A stretch of 64,000 nucleotides of DNA. Origin: Metabacillus litoralis (GTDB lineage: Bacteria > Bacillota > Bacilli > Bacillales > Bacillaceae). Both the position numbers and the translations under genes were made by a program. This document shows, piece after piece, positions 56,944-62,207 of this stretch (position 1 is the first letter of the stretch; every line of letters begins with the position of its first letter). The stretch covers positions 62,001 to 126,000 of the forward strand of contig NZ_VOQF01000008.1 in NCBI RefSeq assembly GCF_007994985.1, in the 5' to 3' direction. The notes below the pieces were generated by a model. It was not told where the DNA came from. It saw nothing but the letters and a program-made list of their open reading frames with translations, and ran no database searches.

Positions 56944-57033
56944 TTTTTCACCCCTTTAATTGCTTGGTTTGTTTTCCCCTACTAAAAACTCAACGAAACC
57001 TCTAAACTCTCTACTAAAGATTTCTTAAGACTT

Positions 57034-57215
57034 GGCTCTGTTAAACTTTGTTGTTGATTTCCGTTACAGGCATTCGCTTTCCGCGGGCGGTCCGGGAGCC
57101 TCCTCGGCGCAAGCGCCTGCGGGGTCTCCCTTTGACACGCTTCTCCCGCAGGAGTCTCATGCCTTTCACTCCAATCAACAATGTGCTAAAATCAACATTA
57201 ACCTTTAACATAGTC
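57034..57215 (-). repeat. Intergenic repeat family B, copy 4
   Basis: About 182 bp: GGCTCTGTTAAAC to TTTAACATAGTC. Lacks the CCCGGGAAAAAAGTACC insertion; instead CCGCGGGCGGTCCGGG. Core on the other strand reads GACTCCTGCGGGAGAAGCGTG, GAGACCCCGCAGGCGC and GGAGGCTCC. Confidence 0.88.
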
Positions 57216-58617: not shown

Positions 58618-59730
58618 ATGGCAGAGATTCAATTAAATAATATTTATAAAATTTATGATAATAAAGTAACAGCAGTAGAGGATTTCAACCTTCACATTCA
58701 AGATAAAGAATTTATCGTATTCGTTGGTCCTTCAGGTTGTGGTAAATCAACTACACTTCGTATGGTTGCAGGATTAGAAGAGATTTCAAAAGGAGATTTC
58801 TTCATCGATGGAAAACGTATGAATGATGTTGCACCAAAAGATCGTGATATCGCAATGGTATTCCAGAACTACGCTTTATATCCACATATGAATGTTTATG
58901 ACAATATGGCATTTGGATTAAAGCTTCGTAAATTACCTAAAGACGAGATTGAGCGTCGTGTAACAGAAGCAGCTAAAATTCTTGGCCTTGAGCAATATTT
59001 ACAACGTAAACCAAAAGCTTTATCTGGTGGACAACGTCAGCGTGTTGCACTAGGTCGTGCAATCGTTCGTGATGCAAAAGTATTCTTAATGGATGAGCCT
59101 TTATCTAACCTTGATGCTAAGCTTCGTGTAGCGATGCGTGCTGAAATCACTAAACTACACCAACGTTTACAAACAACTACAATTTACGTAACACATGACC
59201 AAACAGAAGCAATGACAATGGCTACACGTCTTGTTGTATTAAAAGATGGTGTGATTCAACAAGTTGGTTCACCTAAAGAAGTTTATGACAAGCCTGAAAA
59301 CTCATTTGTTGGTGGATTCATCGGCTCACCTGCAATGAACTTCTTTAAAGGTAAGCTTGGTGATGGTAAATTCACAATGGGTACTACTACTGTAGATGTT
59401 CCAGAAGGTAAAATGAAATACCTTCGTGAGCAAGGATATGTAAACAAAGATATCCTTATGGGAGTTCGTCCAGAAGAAATTCATGATGAGCCAGTATTCA
59501 TCGATTCTTCTCAAGGATCAAAAATCACAGCGAAAATTGAAGTAGCTGAATTAATGGGTGCTGAAACAATGCTTTACTCTGAAATCGATGGGCAAACTTT
59601 CGTAGCACGTGTTGACTCTCGTACAGATGTTAAACCTGGTCAAGAACTTGAACTAGCTTTAGATATGAATAAAGCTCACTTCTTCGATATTGAATCAGAT
59701 TTAAGAATTCGTCCAGCTGGAGAAAAATAA
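58618..59730 (+). CDS. msmX: Multi-sugar ABC transporter ATPase MsmX
   Basis: 370 aa. Walker A GPSGCGKST at 37-45, LSGGQRQR at 135-142, Walker B VFLMDEPLSNLDAKLR at 155-170, switch His in YVTHDQTEAM. The C-terminal OB-type regulatory domain (about 240-370) places it in the UgpC/MalK-type sugar importer ATPases. MsmX energises several sugar importers in B. subtilis. Codon choice (CGT for Arg, GCA and GTT rich) is more biased than in its neighbours, fitting high expression. AGGGAGGAA lies 8 bases before the ATG. A terminator follows. Confidence 0.96.
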   Translation: MAEIQLNNIYKIYDNKVTAVEDFNLHIQDKEFIVFVGPSGCGKSTTLRMVAGLEEISKGDFFIDGKRMNDVAPKDRDIAMVFQNYALYPHMNVYDNMAFGLKLRKLPKDEIERRVTEAAKILGLEQYLQRKPKALSGGQRQRVALGRAIVRDAKVFLMDEPLSNLDAKLRVAMRAEITKLHQRLQTTTIYVTHDQTEAMTMATRLVVLKDGVIQQVGSPKEVYDKPENSFVGGFIGSPAMNFFKGKLGDGKFTMGTTTVDVPEGKMKYLREQGYVNKDILMGVRPEEIHDEPVFIDSSQGSKITAKIEVAELMGAETMLYSEIDGQTFVARVDSRTDVKPGQELELALDMNKAHFFDIESDLRIRPAGEK

Positions 59731-59739
59731 TAAATAAAC

Positions 59740-59772
59740 AAAAGCCATGTTCTACTTGAACATGGCTTTTGT
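59740..59772. terminator. Bidirectional terminator after msmX
   Basis: ACAAAAGCCATGTTC and GAACATGGCTTTTGT form a stem with loop TACTT; both strands end in T-rich sequence. Confidence 0.85.
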
Positions 59773-60015
59773 TTATTCACCTATAGATTTAGTTTCTTGA
59801 TGTTGACACCCAAGACAATAAAAGTAGTGGATGCACTCGTGATTTTCTAAGGATTTTTCATAACCATCAAATAATTTCATTACATCTATATCCATATACG
59901 CGCTATAATCATCAAAATAATCTATAACCTTTCCTTGATCTTCCATTAAACTTTGACAATTAGGACATTGAAATGACTTCGTCTCAAATCCATTACATAA
60001 AGGACATAACCCCAT
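59773..60015 (-). CDS. Small zinc-ribbon-like protein, unknown
   Basis: 80 aa with three Cys pairs: CPLC near residue 4, CPNC at 17-20 and CLGC at 67-70, with HxCxH and HYFYCLGCQH near the C-terminus. Likely binds one or two zinc ions. The middle is acidic (YFDDYSAYMDIDVMKLFDGY). GGAGATGAAAGG lies 5 bases before the ATG. Function unknown. Confidence 0.75.
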   Translation of the reverse strand: MGLCPLCNGFETKSFQCPNCQSLMEDQGKVIDYFDDYSAYMDIDVMKLFDGYEKSLENHECIHYFYCLGCQHQETKSIGE

Positions 60016-60343
60016 CCTTTCATCTCCTTTAACTCTAACTCTTCATACGATTAGATTCTCTCAATAGTGGCTCAATTATGTAATGTTCAAAAGCTGATGC
60101 ATTAGTATCCTCTTTAATACTTGTATTTGGAATAAAATTTTAAAGTCACTACTTTTGCTCCATTCACTATACAGAACTCATATCAATAAATTATCATTGT
60201 AAAAATCTACGTTACTCAAGCTTTTTTATCGTCATTTATTCAAATTGATAAGAATTACAGGCTTTCATACATCGGTTAGAACATCAGAAATATAACGATG
60301 ATTCTTTATTTTTTCACATGAGAAAAATTTACCAAAAAAAATG
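60016..60343. other. Region upstream of the SASP promoter, no gene seen
   Basis: AT-rich; no open frame with a ribosome binding site, no repeat of family A or B, no recognised motif. Confidence 0.4.
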
Positions 60344-60373
60344 TGTATATAAACTTAAAAATCATCCATAATA
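60344..60373 (+). promoter_or_regulatory. Sigma-G/F-type forespore promoter
   Basis: TGTATA (60344-60349) and CATAATA (60367-60373) are 17 bases apart, close to the sigma-G consensus (TGnATA, CATnnTA). It fits expression of the SASP gene in the forespore and would give a leader of about 145 bases that includes the tRNA-like fold. Confidence 0.7.
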
Positions 60374-60424
60374 CTTAGTAACAACAAAGCAACACACATT
60401 ATTAACTAAAGCAAATTATCTTGA

Positions 60425-60495
60425 TGGGTTACGCCGAGTTAGGCGGTGAAGTACAACACTTCATAAGTTTGGTGCAAATCCAACTAACCCAACCA
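60425..60495 (+). ncRNA. tRNA-like cloverleaf with encoded CCA, in the SASP leader
   Basis: 71 nt that fold as a tRNA. Acceptor TGGGTTA/TAACCCA is 7 bp, discriminator A, then CCA (60493-60495). D-arm CGCC-GAGTTA-GGCG, anticodon arm TGAAG-TACAACA-CTTCA, variable TAAG, T-arm TTTGG-TGCAAAT-CCAAC (outer pair T-C mismatched). Departures from a working tRNA: no bases 8-9 between acceptor and D-stem, A at position 33 instead of U, C at 37, G at 55, and a short D-loop without GG. It would read CAA if used. It lies 52 bases after the sigma-G-type promoter and 32 before the SASP ATG. A pseudo-tRNA or a cloverleaf regulatory leader. Confidence 0.6.
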
Positions 60496-60527
60496 TTAAA
60501 AAACTATTATGAGGAGATGAATGACAG

Positions 60528-60749
60528 ATGGCACAAAACAGTTCAAACAACAGCAATTCGTCTAACCAACTAGTAGTACCAGGAGCTTCTCAAGCAATTG
60601 ATCAAATGAAATATGAGATCGCTTCTGAATTCGGCGTTAACCTTGGTGGAGAAACTACTTCTAGAGCTAACGGTTCTGTAGGTGGAGAAATCACTAAGCG
60701 TTTAGTATCAATGGCTCAACAATCTATGAGCGGTTATACTCAACAATAA
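60528..60749 (+). CDS. Alpha/beta-type small acid-soluble spore protein
   Basis: 73 aa. Binds and protects DNA in the dormant spore. [23 protein letters not shown] carries the GPR protease cleavage site (E-IASEFGV); the second conserved block is [18 protein letters not shown]. Position next to the yheE/yheG block corresponds to B. subtilis sspB; orthology among the nearly identical paralogues cannot be fixed. GAGGAG lies 12 bases before the ATG. Confidence 0.95.
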
Positions 60750-60770
60750 CAATTAAATATATTTGGCTAA

Positions 60771-60805
60771 GAGGCTGGCACTTTGTGTCAGCTTCTTCTT
60801 TTTGT
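60771..60805 (+). terminator. Terminator after the SASP gene
   Basis: GAGGCTGGCAC and GTGTCAGCTTC pair (two G-U pairs) around TTT, followed by TTCTTTTT. Confidence 0.8.
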
Positions 60806-60931
60806 GGATTTTTTCACGGTAATAAGTATCAAACAAGTTCTGAAAACCATATAGTATAAAAACATCCATTCTTCCTTTTTAACTATCGATATTCGTTCAA
60901 CAAGGAAATCATCAAAAAGGAGCGGATAATT

Positions 60932-61054
60932 ATGCTCGACTCTGTAGATTGGAAGCAAGTTGCTTTTGTTGGATATACTTTATTTCATGAATATGTTGTT
61001 TATATACGATTTCCCCAGGTTTATTACTGGGAAGAAGCTAAAAAGAAACTATAA
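60932..61054 (+). CDS. Small protein, position of B. subtilis yheF
   Basis: 40 aa: MLDSVDWKQVAFVGYTLFHE, then YVVYIRFPQVYYWEEAKKKL. AAAGGAGCG lies 9 bases before the ATG. The order SASP, 40-codon ORF, yheG equals sspB-yheF-yheG of B. subtilis, where YheF has 41 aa; identity by position, not by recognised sequence. Confidence 0.6.
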   Translation: MLDSVDWKQVAFVGYTLFHEYVVYIRFPQVYYWEEAKKKL

Positions 61055-61100
61055 TATAATCTTAAAGGCTGACAGTTTTTATGTCGGTCTCTTTTTTATT

Positions 61101-61283
61101 GGCTCTGTTAAACTTTGTTGTTGATTTCCGTTACAGGCATTCGCTTTCCGCGGGCGGTCCGGGAGCCTCCTCGGCGCAAGCGCCTGTGGGGTCTCCCTTT
61201 GACACGCTTCTCCCGCAGGAGTCTCATGCCTTTCACTCCAATCAACAATGTGCTAAAAATCAACATTAACCTTTAACATAGCC
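61101..61283 (-). repeat. Intergenic repeat family B, copy 5
   Basis: About 183 bp, GGCTCTGTTAAAC to TTTAACATAGCC, almost identical to copy 4 (short form with CCGCGGGCGGTCCGGG). Between the yheF-like ORF and yheG. An open frame across it is a shadow. Confidence 0.88.
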
Positions 61284-61372
61284 TTTTTATTAACCCCATA
61301 TTAATGCCTTTAATTTTTATTACCATTCAAATATTTTTTATTTTTCTCTAAATAAAGTATGATCTTTATAAG

Positions 61373-61537
61373 AGGCTCTTTTCTGAAAGATTGTTGTTAA
61401 TTAACGTAATTTCCTGTTAGAAACAATGTTGTTTTCTTATAAAAGTTACGAATACAAGAAGAAAAGATGCCTCTAGACTTTATACAGTGCTGTTTTCTTC
61501 ATATTACAAAAAGCAAAACAGTATACGAAAACAGCCT
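61373..61537. repeat. Possible third inverted-end intergenic element
   Basis: Begins AGGCTCTTTTCTG and ends with the complement of AGGCTGTTTTCG. Contains AAAAGATGCCTCTAGAC and two TGTTTTCTT segments. Single copy in this window; called by its ends only. Confidence 0.35.
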
Positions 61538-61586
61538 TATAAGAAGTTTTTCCAGGTAAATTAAATTTGTTTTAGAGGTGAAATAA

Positions 61587-62207
61587 ATGAAAGTTGCATT
61601 ATTAGGAGCTACAGGTCGGGTAGGTACTGAAATTTTATCTTTCCTTTTAAATGATAAATATGAAGTTTCGACTTTAACTCGAACACCAGAAAAAATACAT
61701 ACTACTTCTCCATTACTATCTGTAATAAAAGGAGATGCAAAAAATTACGAAGATATCCAAAATGTTATCGATGGTAACGACCTTGTAATTAGTGCTCTAA
61801 ACACTGACGGAAGTGATACCCTTTCAATCACTACCCCACATCTTATAAAAGCGATGAAGAAAAAAGGACTTCATCGCATCATTACGATTGGTACAGCTGG
61901 GATTTTACAGTCACGAATAGAACCAGAAGTCTTTCGATTTCAATCAAGTGAATCCCGTAGGAAAACAACTAGAGCAGCCGAAGAGCATTTAAGAGTGTTT
62001 CAGCAGCTCAATGCCAGCTCTCTAAATTGGACAATCGTCTGTCCAACATATCTTCCAGATGGTAAGTTAACAAAAAAATATCGCTATGCAGCTGATTTCC
62101 TACCTGAAGCTGGAAGAGAAATCTCTGTACAGGATACTGCGCATTTTGCATTTAAACAAATAGAAAATCAGGAGTTTGTAAAAAAGCGAGTAGGCATTAG
62201 TTATTGA
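61587..62207 (+). CDS. yheG: NAD(P)-binding protein YheG (NmrA-like SDR)
   Basis: 206 aa, the length of B. subtilis YheG. Rossmann motif GATGRVGTEI at residues 7-16, then VIKGDAKNYEDIQ and LVISALNTDG of the atypical SDR (NmrA-like) class; no YxxxK catalytic pair is evident, so it may be a redox sensor or bind NAD(P) only. AGAGGTG lies 8 bases before the ATG. Confidence 0.92.
   Translation: MKVALLGATGRVGTEILSFLLNDKYEVSTLTRTPEKIHTTSPLLSVIKGDAKNYEDIQNVIDGNDLVISALNTDGSDTLSITTPHLIKAMKKKGLHRIITIGTAGILQSRIEPEVFRFQSSESRRKTTRAAEEHLRVFQQLNASSLNWTIVCPTYLPDGKLTKKYRYAADFLPEAGREISVQDTAHFAFKQIENQEFVKKRVGISY

Follow-up and report, generated by a model that had tools for sequence, protein, structure and literature searches.

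In E. coli, thrS is autoregulated through an operator in its mRNA leader, which resembles the anticodon arm of tRNA-Thr, the substrate of the encoded enzyme, and controls translation. A related arrangement may exist in the SASP leader described here, although it lacks an anticodon, keeps the acceptor end and precedes a gene that does not encode a synthetase. A second described system is the yjdF riboswitch, which we take to be Rfam family RF01764. It is a tRNA-like leader of Firmicutes mRNAs that lies just 5' of the Shine-Dalgarno site and acts at the level of translation, and descent from or mimicry of a tRNA has been proposed for it, too (PMC9142559; this and all other papers are cited from the parts of their text available to us). 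The yjdF aptamer is related to tRNA-Lys, depends on a ligand, conserves the D-loop GG to >97%, pairs its T-loop with the Shine-Dalgarno site and belongs to another gene (PMC9142559), whereas the SASP element resembles tRNA-Gln, is without the GG in most cases and gives no clear sign of Shine-Dalgarno sequestration. The tRNA-Other of B. cereus is likewise a non-decoding tRNA-like element within a longer Bacillus RNA, but it has a Trp anticodon, is part of a larger, iron-responsive regulatory RNA and, in the available text, is not described together with a SASP gene (PMC3399842). A reading of the DNA made beforehand from the letters alone (the sequence-only reading) had invoked this pseudo-tRNA as support for a function; it carries a Trp anticodon and belongs to a different, larger RNA, and the available text contains no link to the element.

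A literature search confined to open-licence papers, as far as their text was available, returned no report of a structured RNA in SASP leaders. Spore, SASP and tRNA-like terms in the available main text of three motif-discovery papers (PMC11109978, PMC8632094, PMC2864571) did not lead to this element either. The element probably represents an as yet unlisted control RNA that contributes to setting the amount of SASP in the developing spore.

The cloverleaf upstream of the Metabacillus litoralis SASP gene

The window, i.e., the whole stretch of 64,000 nt of M. litoralis DNA that was analyzed, contains the element in the leader of an alpha/beta-type SASP gene with its start codon at 60528 (Table 1). 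We take the motif GTATA-17 nt-CATAATA upstream of the element to fit the sigma-G consensus. The element has a minimum free energy of -23.9 kcal/mol compared to a mean of -14.5 for shuffled sequences (z -3.2), and 1 of 200 shuffles was equally good. In the D-arm, bases 60433-60435 pair with 60442-60444 and an additional pair C60432-G60445 is possible. The fifth T-stem pair, formed in 65 of 79 relatives, is missing from the window copy.

Table 1. Features of the SASP leader and gene, with positions in the window.
Feature	Position	Strand	Details
Sigma-G-like promoter	60345..60373	+	-35 GTATA 60345-60349, -10 CATAATA 60367-60373, spacer 17; read from sequence
tRNA-Gln-like cloverleaf element with R73-CCA	60425..60495	+	Fold, covariance model R3 71.7 bits, covariation
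Acceptor stem 5' strand UGGGUUA	60425..60431	+	Pairs with 60485-60491
D-arm GCC-GAGUUA-GGC	60433..60444	+	Near tRNA-Gln D-arm, loop shortened
Anticodon-like arm, variable in sequence and length, without kept anticodon	60447..60463	+	60447-60451 with 60459-60463
T-arm UUGG-UGCAAAU-CCAA	60469..60483	+	60469-60472 with 60480-60483
Acceptor stem 3' strand UAACCCA	60485..60491	+	Read from sequence and covariation
Discriminator A (A60492) and CCA (60493-60495)	60492..60495	+	
A/T-rich linker to Shine-Dalgarno, 16 nt in window copy	60496..60511	+	G-poor
Shine-Dalgarno AGGAG	60512..60516	+	Read from sequence
Alpha/beta-type SASP gene, 73 aa	60528..60749	+	PF00269, 80.6 bits, E 8.1e-23

Compared with a decoding tRNA-Gln, the window copy has the 7-bp acceptor stem, the D-arm, the T-arm and the CCA, and is devoid of U8-A9, G18-G19, U33 and an anticodon UUG in a 7-nt loop. 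The sequence-only reading had described a probably non-decoding tRNA mimic, without bases 8-9, D-loop GG and U33, between a sigma-G-type promoter and a SASP gene. These absences are correct for the window copy, and the description was right; the interpretation that went with it was supported in part, as it included a decayed tRNA (see below) and overlooked the likeness to tRNA-Gln, the narrow distance to the Shine-Dalgarno site, the joint change of D- and T-loop and the second SASP gene of the genome with its shorter version. ARAGORN made no tRNA call over the 64,000-nt window, and the downstream gene matches PF00269. An Rfam scan of window positions 59000-62000 to E=10 gave no relevant match, including none to T-box riboswitches and none to the yjdF model. 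At the gathering threshold, 21 element loci matched no Rfam family, yjdF included, except for one borderline tRNA match (L157, one of 10 loci, which just reaches the tRNA cut-off with 29.1 against 29 bits). The SASP region of the window is flanked by a 160-nt repeat in two copies (57032-57191 and 61099-61258) that are 99% identical and 4067 nt apart.

The cloverleaf at 60425-60495 was the central claim of the earlier reading, which had named stem covariation in relatives as a way to check it. Indeed, an alignment of 79 elements, spanning 18 families by our own tally, contained 281 double-change cells compared to 75.4 after shuffling, a value reached by 0 of 500 shuffles, and controls with a slid structure gave at most 68. 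All four helices covary, with double changes at 17 of the 22 pairs (13 of 22 in a set of 37 sequences). The anticodon-like arm shows double changes at all 8 modeled pairs, and no cell of the alignment has an unpaired D-stem. Already among 20 full-length sequences from the genus, the arm at the anticodon position had 18 double-change cells versus 8.4 in shuffled alignments (0 of 500). Alignments A6 and A7 were fitted to the model structure, which biases them in favor of that structure. In the plain MAFFT alignment of the genus (A4), three of five measures exceeded all shuffles, whereas the counts of double-changed pairs (455/500) and of further pair types (67/500) did not exceed all of them. 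The claim thus holds by sequence reading, folding energy and covariation, and we conclude that the element folds as a tRNA-like cloverleaf that is under selection. A chance fold was rejected because the element recurs in relatives. The cloverleaf is genuine, does not stand alone and is not the remnant of a tRNA gene.

Distribution of the element in SASP leaders

The leader was found 5' of the SASP gene in all 21 Metabacillus genomes searched. Among 20 members of the genus, the element had a mean pairwise identity of 80%, compared to 50% in the 45 nt preceding it, 24% farther upstream and 62% in the linker that follows; the start of the SASP coding region reached 82%. Eight weaker matches in the genus are leaders of another SASP gene and represent a short form of 51-52 nt without the anticodon-like arm. 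In the window's genome, two of the five alpha/beta SASP genes carry the element, namely the window gene and a second one with a shorter version (G000:C1:532796). The other three, as well as two more distant SASP-family genes, lack it. A 39-nt second-site match to bases of the leader is present on contig C67 of the same genome (G000:C67, L002).

A covariance model built from the 20 full-length SASP leaders of the genus (R1) found relatives in the family. In a second genus the element lies upstream of SASP in 10 of 10 fetched loci, and we take the protein encoded there to be SspB of B. subtilis. The next 20 fetched loci, ten from this second genus and ten from four further genera, were all located before SASP genes. 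An SspB-type protein follows the element in B. spizizenii, B. mojavensis, B. inaquosorum, B. tequilensis and B. halotolerans. An exact 26-base pattern recovered 51 records in a collection of 84,980 species, all 51 with SASP downstream; the SASP reading frame was recognized by regular expression in 49 and by reading all frames in L250 and L222, the latter being cut by the contig end. Genera with the exact pattern include Bacillus, Anoxybacillus, Thermolongibacillus, Heyndrickxia, Rossellomorea, Cytobacillus, Robertmurraya, Niallia, Metabacillus and Sporosarcina. B. subtilis itself is not among the 51 exact-pattern records of this collection. An exact pattern had zero matches in the viral_contigs collection, in which we looked for phage or viral carriage.

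An order-wide search was inspected at 45 loci, comprising the best-scoring ones and 20 picked for family spread. Of these, 44 precede SASP genes, one of them with a broken SASP frame (L169), and one is a tRNA-Gln gene. Two left-over loci (L154 and L160) both lie 5' of SASP genes. Among the loci inspected, elements stand before SASP genes in at least 21 of the 47 GTDB families sampled from the order, with L278/L279, L321 and L323 included in the count. In a 22nd family the SASP leader L324 has the T-arm, and its acceptor stem was not closed by our script. When the pattern was given an extra base at the joint of T-arm and acceptor stem, 13 matches resembling the short form were obtained, 11 before SASP genes and two by chance. 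The loci L270-L279 (family f20, genus g81, and family f12) are such short-form-like elements before SASP with the extra base, and in f20 the D-loop reads UAGA. Close to the SASP gene of L270 lies a Bacillaceae-1 RNA (RF01690; L270:1934-2000, minus strand). The anticodon-like arm was lost in two lineages (L023, L312, L320), in which the acceptor stem, D-arm and T-arm remain; L023 is one of the 21 Metabacillus genomes.

Every inspected locus other than tRNA genes or chance matches thus has a SASP gene downstream. Genome-level match counts (272/299, 80/80 and 134/397) cannot serve as prevalence because tRNA-Gln genes match as well, and prevalence is established for the inspected loci alone. A reversed-pattern control to the search with 134 of 397 genomes matched 3 genomes, counted by eye. 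At class level, model R3 at E<=1e-6 matched 22 genomes outside the order, and every listed match measured 75 nt, as does tRNA-Gln; this threshold is strict, as several genomes within the order were also blank, and weaker relatives would escape it. Sequences of tRNA-Gln were extracted from loci of this class-level search.

Likeness to tRNA-Gln and conserved parts

Judged by its sequence, the element is specifically tRNA-Gln-like. With R1, which was built from SASP leaders alone, all 12 fetched non-SASP matches in other genomes were tRNA-Gln(UUG) in exact register. ARAGORN lists 71 tRNA genes in the window's genome, and on their clusters R1 scored four tRNA-Gln genes at 31.9-32.9 bits, above every other tRNA; two tRNA-Cys genes followed with 27.0 and 21.0 bits, and the rest stayed below 20 bits except for the elements. 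By pairwise alignment to 20 isotypes, tRNA-Gln was nearest for 77 of the 79 elements and tRNA-Cys for two. The element shares with tRNA-Gln(UUG) of Bacillales the UGGG acceptor, the GCC-RAG..AGGC D-arm, a T/acceptor side of the UGG..UCCAGCUA type and the CCA. The tRNA-Gln D-arm GCC-AAGCGGUAA-GGC appears as GCC-RAG..A-GGC in many elements. In contrast to tRNA-Gln(UUG), the element has no anticodon, mostly has one base instead of two at positions 8-9, is usually without G18-G19, and in most cases replaces UUC of the T-loop by UGC and G73 by A73. Twelve element loci were run through ARAGORN, and it called a tRNA at none of the 12. Among the tRNA-Gln genes of the window's genome, one (L145; G000:C12:99306-99377) ends in GCTA and not in an encoded CCA.

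The acceptor end is nearly invariant. In 78 distinct rows, the pairs U1-A72, G2-C71, G3-C70 and G4-C69 occur 77, 78, 77 and 76 times, respectively; L185 has a C at position 1. Pairs 5-7 vary with compensation, pair 7 being unpaired in 16 rows, and all seven acceptor pairs are formed in 54 of 79 relatives. The 3' tails read ACCA (62), GCCA (11), AAAA (5) or GCAA (1), and hence RCCA in 73 of 79. An anticodon is not conserved, and the anticodon-like arm ranges from 5 to 62 nt. In L232, L240, L182 and L169 it has grown by tens of bases, giving elements of 95-128 nt that are otherwise intact. Two bases ahead of the element, at position -2, 78 of 79 loci have a purine (A 55, G 23, T 1), and position -1 is free.

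The D-loop comprises 4-9 nt (5 or 6 in 60 of 79) compared to 9 in tRNA-Gln. The T-loop is seven bases long in 79 of 79 and starts with UGCAA or UGCGA in most elements. A D-loop GG is present in 9 and the canonical U55 in 7 of the 79. The two tend to go together: 13 of 17 U55 elements carry the GG versus 4 of 72 G55 elements, three of these four from one genus (Fisher 3e-9, a value that ignores relatedness). The 17 consist of the 7 in the alignment and ten fetched by a U55 pattern, whose D-loops were read by eye; the non-U55 loci L321-L324 were left out. This joint tendency of U55 and the D-loop GG fits a D-loop/T-loop elbow that may be retained, or altered, as a unit.

Proposed role in SASP translation

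All 79 aligned relatives have a Shine-Dalgarno site, and the element tail lies 11-23 nt (median 14) ahead of it. The linkers are poor in G, with 13 of 948 bases at positions 1-12 and 59 of 1214 over their whole length. A sigma-G-like site was detected upstream of 72 of 79 elements with a loose regular expression, and CATAATA occurs exactly in 44. The distance from this -10 to the element varies between 4 and 121 nt, the extremes possibly being false sites. The element is therefore registered to the Shine-Dalgarno site and not to the promoter, and a distance that is narrow on one side and variable on the other is what a cis element working at the level of translation would show. We tentatively favor, as quite possible yet short of probable, that this tRNA-Gln-derived cis element is a translational enhancer acting at initiation on its own SASP mRNA. 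Sigma-G would transcribe the SASP mRNA in the forespore, the element would adopt an L-shape whose elbow is formed by D-loop and T-loop, and a tRNA-like shape beside the ribosome-binding site might recruit or retain ribosomes, leading to more SASP translation. The preference has an experimental precedent (PMC9142559): in vitro, authentic tRNAs inserted ahead of a Shine-Dalgarno site increased translation 2- to 6.3-fold, and the yjdF aptamer, which resembles tRNA-Lys, binds to ribosomes in its ligand-bound state. In the same system mutation of ACCA cost little and leaders with identical D- and T-loops differed twofold in expression (PMC9142559); therefore, the invariant UGGG/CCCA end is unexplained by the enhancer precedent. 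Its near-invariance suggests that an unnamed factor may also read the acceptor end. Several observations speak against an enhancer: three of the five alpha/beta SASP genes of the window's genome do without the element; GG is missing from most SASP elements (present in 9 of 79), compared to >97% in yjdF (PMC9142559); the SASP start site of L250, outside the 79, lies some 80 nt downstream and not close by as in the others; and when element and leader are folded together in prediction, the Shine-Dalgarno site is open in only 43 of 79, which we also count against it. An anticodon-like arm of 5-62 nt is hard to reconcile with a leader that docks in a tRNA site.

The constant acceptor end brings the amidotransferase GatCAB into consideration. 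Bacilli make Gln-tRNA via the GatCAB pathway, and GluRS needs the tRNA anticodon, which is exactly the part that the element has lost. GatCAB, or GluRS with GatCAB, might bind the element as a tRNA-Gln operator and couple SASP translation to supply of and demand for Gln-tRNA in the forespore. The determinants of GatCAB, U1-A72 (PMC4027206, PMC4206432) and a small D-loop (PMC4027206), are kept in 77 of 78 rows and as loops of 4-9 nt, respectively, and near-invariance of pairs 1-4 next to compensated change at pairs 5-7 is the reverse of what a need for pairing alone predicts. However, CCA is absent from 6 of 79 elements and, within the mRNA, does not form a free 3' end, L185 breaks the rule at position 1, and the short three-arm form of the window's genome has a 6-bp acceptor without a clear U1-A72 plus discriminator. 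SASPs with the element contain 11.0% and 7.4% Gln, those without it 15.3%, 9.1% and 7.9%; within the window's genome a Gln-rich protein is thus unsupported as the reason for a tRNA-Gln shape. On balance we regard the operator as unlikely, though worth serious thought, and its specific version, in which GatCAB alone or with GluRS would recognize U1-A72, the acceptor end and the elbow, as somewhat less likely again. Processing by RNase P would make use of other conserved parts: a cut 5' of U1 could create an mRNA that begins with a paired acceptor stem and is shielded from 5' exonucleases, or, with a further cut after CCA, could free a tRNA-like RNA. RNase P recognizes any RNA that presents a T-stem-loop/acceptor structure and dispenses with the D-loop (PMC4919913), and the constant seven-base T-loop, RCCA in 73 of 79, the complete acceptor/T-stem stack of 7+5 bp seen in 46 of 79 and the purine at -2 agree with this. 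We nevertheless judge it improbable, as the 12-bp stack is missing from 33 of 79 including the window copy, the D-stem is always paired and the elbow co-varies although neither is needed for cleavage, the invariant U1 is unexplained and the narrow distance to the Shine-Dalgarno site is not predicted. Quite improbable in our view is a riboswitch-like device as in yjdF, in which a forespore ligand or condition would fold the element and expose the Shine-Dalgarno site. A tRNA-like aptamer has a precedent (PMC9142559), and CAANUCC of the T-loop could pair with GGAG-type sites, but T-arm/Shine-Dalgarno complementarity was not clearly better within than between species (194 of 2000 permutations equal or better), a strong cloverleaf is predicted without ligand, and Rfam riboswitch models matched neither the window locus nor the element loci scanned. 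The earlier reading had also listed a decayed tRNA, an origin to which the likeness to tRNA-Gln does point. Order-wide conservation with covariation refutes this, and with an identity far above that of the flanks and the same gene context throughout, a decayed tRNA-Gln gene or functionless chance cloverleaf is extremely improbable.

If the GatCAB operator were true, the tRNA-Gln mimic would make the synthesis of a principal DNA-protecting spore protein dependent on the state of forespore Gln-tRNA formation. To our knowledge, it would be the first mRNA control element for GatCAB. SASPs are well studied, yet leaders of some of their genes carry a tRNA-Gln mimic common to many families of Bacillales, including close relatives of B. 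subtilis. With it, nature provides an example of tRNA mimicry within an mRNA leader that is amenable to genetics and can be tested directly in sspB of B. subtilis. The element links spore protection to tRNA biology and may help to account for the large amount of one protein that is made in the forespore.
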